This document shows, in pieces, positions 41,974 through 44,082 of a stretch of DNA of 64,000 nt (positions are counted from its first letter, which is position 1; every line of letters begins with the position of its first letter). The stretch comes from Spiroplasma turonicum (lineage in GTDB: Bacteria; Bacillota_I; Bacilli_A; Mycoplasmatales; Mycoplasmataceae): the NCBI RefSeq assembly GCF_001262715.1, contig NZ_CP012328.1, positions 992,001 through 1,056,000 on the forward strand, given 5' to 3'. Under the pieces are notes generated by a model. The model was not told where the DNA came from and ran no database searches. It saw nothing but the letters and a program-made list of their open reading frames with translations. A program made the position numbers and the translations under genes.

Positions 41974-42750
41974 TTATTTATTTTCAACTTTTTTTGTTGC
42001 TGTTTCTTTTTTTTCAGCTACAGCTTTTGTAGTTGTAGTTTTTTTAACAGCATCAGTTTTAGCAGTTGTTTTTTTTGTAACTGTTTCTTTTTTTTCAGCT
42101 ACAGCTTTTGTAGTTGTAGTTTTTTTAACAGCATCAGTTTTAGCAGTTGTTTTTTTTGTAACTGTTTCTTTTTTTTCAACAGCTGCTTTAGTAGTTACAG
42201 TTGTTTTAGTAGTTGGTGTTTTAGCTACTGTTTCTTTTTTTTCAGCTACAACTTTTGTTGAAGCACTTGCTTTTGTAGTTGTTTTAGCAGGTGTTTCTTT
42301 TTTTTCAACAGCTGCTTTAGTAGTTACAGTTGTTTTAGTATTTGGCGCTGTAGCAACTGTTTCTTTTTTTGCAGCAATAGTTGAAACTTTTGCTTCACTA
42401 TTAACTTCTGATGACTTAGAAACTGGCTTAGGTTTGTTTGATAAAACTCCAGTCAATGATACCTCATCAATTTTTACCTTTGTATATGGTTGTCTATGAC
42501 CATAAATCTTATTAACATTTTTTTTAGGGTGGTATCTAATAACTCTTAATTTTTTTTCTTTACCTTGTTTAAGTATTGTTCCTGAAACAACAGCATTTTT
42601 TATAAATGGATTACCGAAAGTAGAATCTACCATTAAAACTTCTTTAAATAGTATTTGTTCTCCTTCCTCTAATTTAACTTTTTCAATGAATATTTCATCA
42701 CCTTGTTGAACTTTAATTTGTTTACCACCTGTTTTAATAATTGCAAACAT
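41974..42750 (-). CDS. rplU: Ribosomal protein L21 with a long Lys/Thr-rich repeat tail
   Basis: 258 aa against ~100 in other bacteria. Residues 1-100 are normal L21: MFAIIKTGGKQIKVQQGD, EVLMVDS and VIRYHPKKNVNKIYGHRQPYTKVKID. The next ~155 residues are a basic tail of near-repeats built from AEKKET, TKKTTAKTDAVKK and TTTTKA. Two 27-residue units are identical at DNA level. ATG 42750 after GGAGG; the longer frame to 42849 reads through a -10 and leader and is rejected. L21 binds 23S rRNA; the tail may add RNA binding. Confidence 0.93.
   Translation of the reverse strand: MFAIIKTGGKQIKVQQGDEIFIEKVKLEEGEQILFKEVLMVDSTFGNPFIKNAVVSGTILKQGKEKKLRVIRYHPKKNVNKIYGHRQPYTKVKIDEVSLTGVLSNKPKPVSKSSEVNSEAKVSTIAAKKETVATAPNTKTTVTTKAAVEKKETPAKTTTKASASTKVVAEKKETVAKTPTTKTTVTTKAAVEKKETVTKKTTAKTDAVKKTTTTKAVAEKKETVTKKTTAKTDAVKKTTTTKAVAEKKETATKKVENK
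42001..42162 (-). repeat. Perfect 81-bp tandem duplication in the rplU tail
   Basis: 42001-42081 and 42082-42162 are identical. Each encodes 27 residues. Degenerate copies of the same Lys/Thr motif continue to about 42360. This shows recent expansion by slippage or recombination. Confidence 0.92.
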
Positions 42751-42850
42751 TATTTTACCTCCGAATAGACTCGCCTTGTATGTGAATATAAAATATTTCT
42801 TAAAACATACAAAAGAGCGGTTGAATCTACAACCTAAATAATTGTACATT
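42751..42850 (-). ncRNA. L21 leader RNA (Firmicute-type)
   Basis: The minus-strand leader ends in AGTCTATTCGGAGG just before the rplU ATG, the signature of the L21 leader. A TACAAT near the 5' end is a plausible -10. The role is assumed to be control by a ribosomal protein. Confidence 0.65.
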
Positions 42851-42898
42851 ATTTTTTTATTAATTTCATTAAATTTTGATTAATTAATATATAAAAAA

Positions 42899-42920
42899 GC
42901 TAGCATTATATAACACTAGC
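42899..42920 (-). terminator. Terminator of the GG-peptide gene
   Basis: On the minus strand GCTAG, loop, CTAGC followed by TTTTTT. It overlaps the last codons of the peptide gene. Confidence 0.8.
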
Positions 42921-43184
42921 TCAGTTTGCGGATTTTTGTGAATATTTATTTTCGTTTAGTTTTGTTCTATCAAATGAAAATGAATTATTCCCTATTTTAA
43001 AGTCCATTTTATCAACATTATTAATTACTTTTGAAGCCAATATAGGTGTAGCTATCGCACCAATATTATCAGTAAAAAATCCAGTAGCACTTTTAATAAT
43101 ATTTGCTATACCATCCAGAAATGCACCTGAAATACCAGCTCCACCTACAATGTTTCTTTTTTCATCTATAGTTAATTTTTGTAT
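42906..43184 (-). CDS. Bacteriocin-like peptide with double-glycine leader (ATA start)
   Basis: 92 aa, not found by standard callers. Read from ATA 43184, the leader is (M)QKLTIDEKRNIVGG: Gly-Gly at 14-15, Ile at -4, Glu at -8 and Leu at -12, the pattern of leaders cut by C39 peptidase transporters. A Gly/Ala/Ile-rich, hydrophobic core follows (AGISGAFLDGIANIIK, then DNIGAIATPIL), and a polar tail. GGTGAT sits at the right spacing before ATA, and no ATG, GTG or TTG exists upstream before the in-frame stop. TGA near the end is Trp. No C39 transporter or immunity gene is seen nearby. It lies between rsmI and rplU. Confidence 0.6.
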
Positions 43185-43209
43185 TTTATCACCCTTTTAT
43201 AATATCGAC

Positions 43210-44082
43210 TTATTTTTTTAATTTGTATATAATATTTGATAAAGTATTTTTATTAATCTTATATTTTTGGTGTAATTCTTTAATAATATCTTTATTTGTA
43301 AGACCATTGGTTTTTAAAGATAGTACAAGTTCTTCAATTTTGTTTTCACTAATATTATCTAAAATCTTTATATTTGATAAATCTAGTACAATTGAAAACT
43401 CACCTTTAGCAATAAAATCATTGCTATTTAAATATGCTTTAACTTCTTCTAAGGTTCCATGAATAAATTGTTCATTTATTTTTGATATTTCTCTACCTAT
43501 AACAATATTTGTTTCTAATGGCAATAATAAAGAAAGTGAATTAATTCTAGTAATAATTCTATGAACAGACTCATAAAAACAAACTATAGTTGAATTATTG
43601 TTGATTTGTTCAATTATTTCATCATTTGTGTTCTTTTTTAAAAACCCTAAAAAAATATTTTTATAAGATATAAAACCACTGACCAATAAAGTATGAATAT
43701 ACGCTGGTCCTGCATTTACAGCCGTTATATTTATGTCATCATAAAAGTTTAAAATGCTATTAACAAAATACATTCCAGGGTCTGAAATGCATGGCACACC
43801 TGCATCAGATATAATAGATATTTTATTGTAATCATTAATTTCAGTTTTAAAGTAATCAAATTCTTCTTGCTCATTAAATTTATGTAAAGTTTTTAAACGC
43901 GTTTTAATGCTATATTTGTTTAAGAGATTTATACTTACTCTTTTATCTTCACAATATATCAAATCCGAGTTTTTTAAAACTTCTATTGCTCTTAAAGAAA
44001 TATCATCTAAATTTCCTATTGGCGTACCAACTAAATATATAGTTTTATTATTATTTTTAAATGTATTTTGTATTTTAAGCAT
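43210..44082 (-). CDS. rsmI: 16S rRNA (cytidine-1402-2'-O)-methyltransferase
   Basis: 290 aa. SAM-dependent enzyme that 2'-O-methylates C1402 in the decoding centre. TIYLVGTPIGNLDDIS and ALEVLKNSDLIYCEDKR-like motifs, SDAGVPCISDPG and the VCFYESVHRI segment are the tetrapyrrole-methylase fold signatures. No TGA. Downstream gene is the GG peptide, 25 bp after its stop. Confidence 0.95.
   Translation of the reverse strand: MLKIQNTFKNNNKTIYLVGTPIGNLDDISLRAIEVLKNSDLIYCEDKRVSINLLNKYSIKTRLKTLHKFNEQEEFDYFKTEINDYNKISIISDAGVPCISDPGMYFVNSILNFYDDINITAVNAGPAYIHTLLVSGFISYKNIFLGFLKKNTNDEIIEQINNNSTIVCFYESVHRIITRINSLSLLLPLETNIVIGREISKINEQFIHGTLEEVKAYLNSNDFIAKGEFSIVLDLSNIKILDNISENKIEELVLSLKTNGLTNKDIIKELHQKYKINKNTLSNIIYKLKK

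Follow-up and report, generated by a model that had tools for sequence, protein, structure and literature searches.

The stretch of Spiroplasma turonicum DNA analyzed here (64,000 nucleotides, hereafter the window) carries an unannotated small gene of 92 codons on the minus strand (43184-42906), which under genetic code 4 is translated into the leader IQKLTIDEKRNIVGG followed by AGISGAFLDGIANIIKSATGFFTDNIGAIATPILASKVINNVDKMDFKIGNNSFSFDRTKLNENKYSQKSANWASVI, with the core directly 3' of the leader beginning AGISGAF. An earlier note on the same DNA had described a 92-codon frame with Gly-Gly at codons 14-15, Ile at -4, Glu at -8 and Leu at -12 without giving a strand; the translation reproduces each of these features and places them on the minus strand. 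The sole TGA, at codon 88, is read as Trp. The 15-residue double-glycine leader (43140-43184, minus) is followed by a predicted mature peptide of 77 residues (42909-43139, minus), which comprises a Gly/Ala-rich predicted helix and then a predicted beta-hairpin. An AlphaFold2 model of low confidence (mean pLDDT 56) has a helix at residues 6-53 and strands at 59-64 and 67-72. Profile matches in the PDB were to designed coiled coils (E 0.0025-0.03) and were set aside as an effect of composition. The leader alone, searched as a DNA pattern in the same genome, gave five matches, the peptide gene among them.

The ATA codon at 43182-43184 (minus) is the sole in-frame start on the upstream side, because the stop-to-stop frame begins KGDK-I and holds no ATG, GTG or TTG upstream, and it aligns with the initiator Met of the relatives. 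Three nucleotides 5' of it lies the Shine-Dalgarno (SD) sequence GGGTGAT (43188-43194, minus), in a position equivalent to that of GGAGG(T) in the relatives. Further upstream, 2 nt past the stop codon of rsmI, is the box CGATAT (43202-43207, minus), a putative promoter -10 element that recurs, about equally far from the SD, at the peptide genes of relatives, the C39 exporter gene, recA, ssb, comEA-comEC, ruvA and recU. At the other end, inspection of the sequence reveals a terminator-like hairpin and T-run over the stop codon (42893-42921, minus) with a 6-bp inverted repeat, AGCTAG/CTAGCT, at 42921-42898. The flanking genes are themselves conserved, with an rsmI motif 5' of the peptide in 27 of the 30 loci checked (here rsmI, 43210-44082, minus) and a ribosomal protein L21 motif 3' of it in 26 of 30 (here rplU, within the minus-strand ORF 41974-42849, inside which its true start probably lies). 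Within 41974-42440 (minus), rplU encodes a long repetitive Lys/Thr/Ala-rich C-terminal tail with AVEKKETVTKKTTAKTDAVKKTTTTK repeats.

Comparative sequence data indicate that this is a real, conserved gene and not a chance frame, because homologues in other species reach E 1e-32 and a profile built from 26 members detects relatives in 51 of the 60 family genomes. When 60 related genomes were searched at the protein level, almost every genome of the genus gave a single match, and the gene is almost always single-copy and nearly always flanked by rsmI and rplU. Judged by this distribution, it is a family-wide, mostly single-copy, syntenic gene and not the oddity of one insect associate. An alignment of 26 sequences shows no variation at residues M1, G15 and G65 and very little at L4; in it, the initiator of the five non-ATG members (ATA, ATC or ATT) was entered as Met. 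The leader pattern, hydrophobic at -12 and -4, acidic at -8 and with GG at -2/-1, is present in the window peptide and kept in its relatives, and the GG site is preserved in homologues, a few of which carry AG instead. Against the two nearest species the synonymous rate is about twice the nonsynonymous rate (pN/pS 0.28/0.59 versus G012 and 0.29/0.52 versus G006).

The search of related genomes for the leader with alternative starts, also suggested in the earlier note, showed that the initiator codon is ATG in 25 of 30 family loci, ATA in three (the window genome, G006 and G016), ATC in one (G011) and ATT in one (G020). An SD sequence precedes the initiator in all five non-ATG loci, whereas rplU starts with ATG in 23/23 cases in the same loci. 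The nearest relative by sequence (G012) has ATG, so the change of initiator probably occurred more than once. An internal TTG or ATG start was rejected, as the conserved leader would be lost, and we infer that translation of the window peptide begins at ATA. In this family, probable AUA, AUC and AUU starts recur, and such starts are missed by gene callers. In two other genomes (G028 and G035) the C39 exporter gene itself seems to be ATT-initiated, after GGGTGAG.

The earlier note had advised looking elsewhere in the genome for a C39-type ABC transporter, and there is one C39 peptidase-ABC transporter (PCAT) gene, a 684-codon ORF after polC-rimP with Peptidase_C39, ABC_membrane and ABC_tran domains, the translation of which probably starts at an internal Met right behind a CGAT box and SD. 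The nearest solved structures are PCAT1 (4ry2) and the pneumococcal-type competence-factor transporter ComA (8hf4), and the protease-site residues Cys, His and Asp align with those of PCAT1. Among 60 genomes of the family, 49 have both peptide and exporter, eight have neither and three are discordant (Fisher p=1.5e-7, a value that ignores kinship among the genomes). Mesoplasma, the genus of M. florum, also retains peptide and exporter. The discordant genomes speak against the export pairing: G027 and G066 carry the peptide without a C39 match and G062 shows the reverse. On balance, the sequence evidence makes it most likely that the peptide is cleaved after GG and exported by this sole PCAT.

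The JCVI-syn3A minimal cell likewise keeps a mollicute C39 exporter (0401), and mycoplasma C39 exporters have been described as having no double-glycine substrate at all (PMC6609329, citing Dirix 2004). Since no GG peptide was reported, 0401 was given another tentative role (PMC6609329). Our literature search found no double-glycine substrate on record for mollicute C39 exporters. The difference here is that a substrate family is proposed, for relatives rather than for M. mycoides itself, and the peptides can be put forward as substrates for mollicute C39 exporters that have been considered orphans.

The CGAT box, or a one-base variant, stands shortly 5' of the SD in 20/20 peptide genes of the genus; the box itself is present in 10/10 PCAT genes examined within it. 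In 20 genomes the pattern CGAT-N6-14-GGAGG-N3-9-ATG gave 123 matches versus 19 with the reversed pattern, and it lies in front of recA, ssb, the peptide gene, PCAT, ruvA-ruvB, recU, comEA-like/comEC and several unknowns. Within the S. turonicum genome the box precedes recA, ssb-dprA (dprA assigned by PF02481 over the cut-off), PCAT, comEA-comEC, a 109-codon unknown beside mraZ and the peptide gene; in relatives it is also found before ruvAB and recU. By this sequence feature, ssb-dprA, comEA-comEC and recA are candidates for co-regulation with the peptide in the manner of late competence genes. As background, 55 SD-bearing genes in three stretches of the same genome, a small set from a single genome, yielded one clear CGAT box, that of PCAT. 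The -35 element of these putative promoters is weakly defined. In the genus of G028 and G035 a TAATyCTTTAGGG-like box, common to peptide and exporter, replaces CGAT, and in several species predicted secreted proteins of up to ~500 aa are encoded behind a CGAT box.

One species (G005) indicates that the CGAT-box gene set decays jointly: frameshifts disrupt the peptide gene, ssb and a regulon gene of 250 aa, PCAT has an internal stop, ruvA has a stop, and a comEC match was looked for in this genome and not found. The genes recA, rsmI and rplU are all open there, and sequencing error may explain some of these lesions. In another genome (G014) recA is interrupted by a stop at codon 171 and retains its CGAT box. 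Transcripts of ruvA, ruvB, recU and comEC rise jointly in Spiroplasma poulsonii in culture, for which the authors suggested competence (PMC5874924).

Most genomes of the genus encode, at ~33 kb, a second sigma-70 protein of ~200 aa, and in S. turonicum its gene lies directly between cysS-rlmB and secE-nusG. It matches TIGR02937 with E 2.8e-10, just under the family cut-off, and combines a sigma-70 domain with a location between rlmB and secE-nusG that would class it as SigH-type. In Firmicutes, Staphylococcus aureus included, this is the place of sigH. The alternative sigma factor probably reads the CGAT box. Its gene (G000, L278:2651-3271) has a TTG start like that of S. aureus sigH, which is TTG-started and translation-limited (PMC3486894). 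In both systems a secondary sigma factor gene is TTG-initiated, and com genes are under its control in S. aureus (PMC3486894), but they differ in that here the box is of CGAT type, the regulon holds a GG peptide and a PCAT, and the pairing of sigma factor and box is putative.

Relatives beyond the family of Spiroplasma were approached through the NCBIfam model MPN313 (NF045747), which scores the Spiroplasma peptide at 12.6 bits with a cut-off of 100, leaving it outside that family. A search of 320 Mycoplasmatales genomes with MPN313 revealed proteins with the same layout, one of which, in G047, we take from its position to be MG220 of Mycoplasma genitalium, alias RrlA. A joint profile (A3), for which both groups supplied members and in which the leader weighs heavily, places the peptide family in 141 of the 320 genomes at E<=0.001, the M. 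genitalium protein included. This would make it a substrate family with a link, seen in the genera that were examined, to genes of recombination and DNA uptake. A third family (f7) has genomes with clear leaders, such as MQKLNQKQCNEISGG, and in a further one (f11), which is also devoid of C39, there was no peptide among the matches listed for the joint profile over the 320 genomes. MPN313/MG220 of Mycoplasmoides resembles the window peptide in its ~90 aa, its MxKL....K..I.GG leader, its single copy and a promoter in common with the C39 exporter and recA; it differs in core sequence and in neighbors, and the Spiroplasma protein misses its NCBIfam cut-off. Homology between the two rests mainly on the leader and the hydrophobic core. 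Given the make-up of the joint profile and its dependence on the leader, the cores probably descend from a common ancestor, but this is not proven.

The M. genitalium promoters lie just 5' of the start and read TTGTCA-N19-ATTAAT for MG390 (the exporter), TTGGCA-N18-ATTAAT for MG220 and ATGTCA-N19-ATTTAT for recA, which gives the common pattern [TA]TG[TG]CA-N18/19-ATTWAT. All three are sigma-20-like, fitting the sigma-20 consensus with at most one mismatch. No ruvAB was located in the M. genitalium stretches examined. According to a review, rrlA and rrlB are required to activate the alternative sigma-20, a controller of recombination, in a feed-forward loop; the review counts RrlA among the transmembrane sigma accessory proteins (PMC9262362). 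The passages concerned do not mention a GG leader in RrlA.

Taken together, the promoter box, the co-loss with the exporter and the M. genitalium relative tie the peptide to recombination and DNA uptake, and joint retention with the exporter, along with a promoter signal common to DNA-uptake and recombination genes, probably makes it a secreted signal or helper in DNA uptake and recombination. The reading that we favor, and consider reasonably probable, is that of an exported GG peptide of a competence/recombination regulon, driven by the CGAT box, cleaved by PCAT and acting as a positive-feedback signal. The alternative sigma factor, encoded where SigH would be expected, would probably switch on the CGAT-box promoters. 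In S. turonicum these would drive the peptide, PCAT, recA, ssb-dprA and comEA-comEC, and in relatives also ruvAB and recU; PCAT would cut the peptide after GG and release the 77-residue mature form, and this would most likely feed back on the cell or its neighbors and raise sigma activity. The feedback step is proposed by analogy with M. genitalium, where sigma-20 activity depends on RrlA (MG220). ATA, as a weak start, would hold peptide output low. Counting against a signal, the mature region is well conserved across species, unlike typical strain-specific pheromones. With the streptococcal ComC/ComA system the peptide shares a GG leader, a C39-ABC exporter related to ComA and a link through a sigma-type box to recA, ssb, dprA and comEA-comEC, but it is a long conserved peptide of a wall-less reduced bacterium with an ATA start and without comDE neighbors. 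Neither a comD-type kinase or receptor nor an adjacent histidine kinase/response regulator pair of the ComCDE kind was found beside it, the locus neighbors being rsmI and rplU.

Streptococci couple competence to the export of bacteriocins or lytic peptides, and the GG leader, the C39 exporter and the Gly/Ala-rich hydrophobic core resemble those of class II bacteriocins; the peptide might then be exported together with the DNA-uptake machinery, lyse neighbors and free their DNA. We regard this as unlikely and rejected it as the main explanation, since most genomes have a single conserved copy, always sought and found at the same kind of locus, the core is strongly conserved, no Pfam or NCBIfam family matches over the cut-off (class II bacteriocins included), and the neighbors are rsmI and rplU, with no adjacent immunity gene. 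Of the competition or signalling inside an insect envisaged in the earlier note, signalling is the better half and competition is disfavored on these grounds, so that its interpretation is partly supported overall. About as improbable is an exported structural helper, a membrane-bound or membrane-embedded component of the machinery for DNA uptake. The CGAT box common to the peptide and comEA-comEC, the helix-plus-hairpin layout of the low-confidence model and the long conserved core would suit such a part, whereas the need for RrlA in sigma-20 activation, as described in the review (PMC9262362), points to regulation rather than to a structural role.

The listing of RrlA among transmembrane sigma accessory proteins in that review (PMC9262362), and the two genomes that retain the peptide without a C39 match, would also fit a protein that acts in the cell or membrane, with the GG incidental or serving for insertion only. 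We consider this very unlikely, given that the leader is kept over three mollicute families while the core diverges, that peptide and C39 exporter are lost together and that both have the same box.

Extending the favored reading of an exported feedback signal, it can be speculated, tentatively and with less assurance, that mollicutes share an ancestral circuit of GG peptide, C39 exporter and alternative sigma factor over recA, ssb-dprA, ruvAB, recU and comEA-comEC, in which RrlA and the window peptide would be two versions of one exported signal and the weak non-AUG starts (ATA, ATC, ATT) a recurrent built-in brake. The parts are of known kinds; what is new is their combination and the recurrent non-AUG start. 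The peptide is a testable candidate for the trigger of natural competence in spiroplasmas and of sigma-20-type recombination, on which M. genitalium relies for antigenic variation. The 109-codon gene with a CGAT box (G000:C1:262762-263111) lies directly upstream of mraZ-mraW and has relatives in four further genomes (G001, G002, G004 and G012); by analogy, it is possibly a functional counterpart of rrlB.
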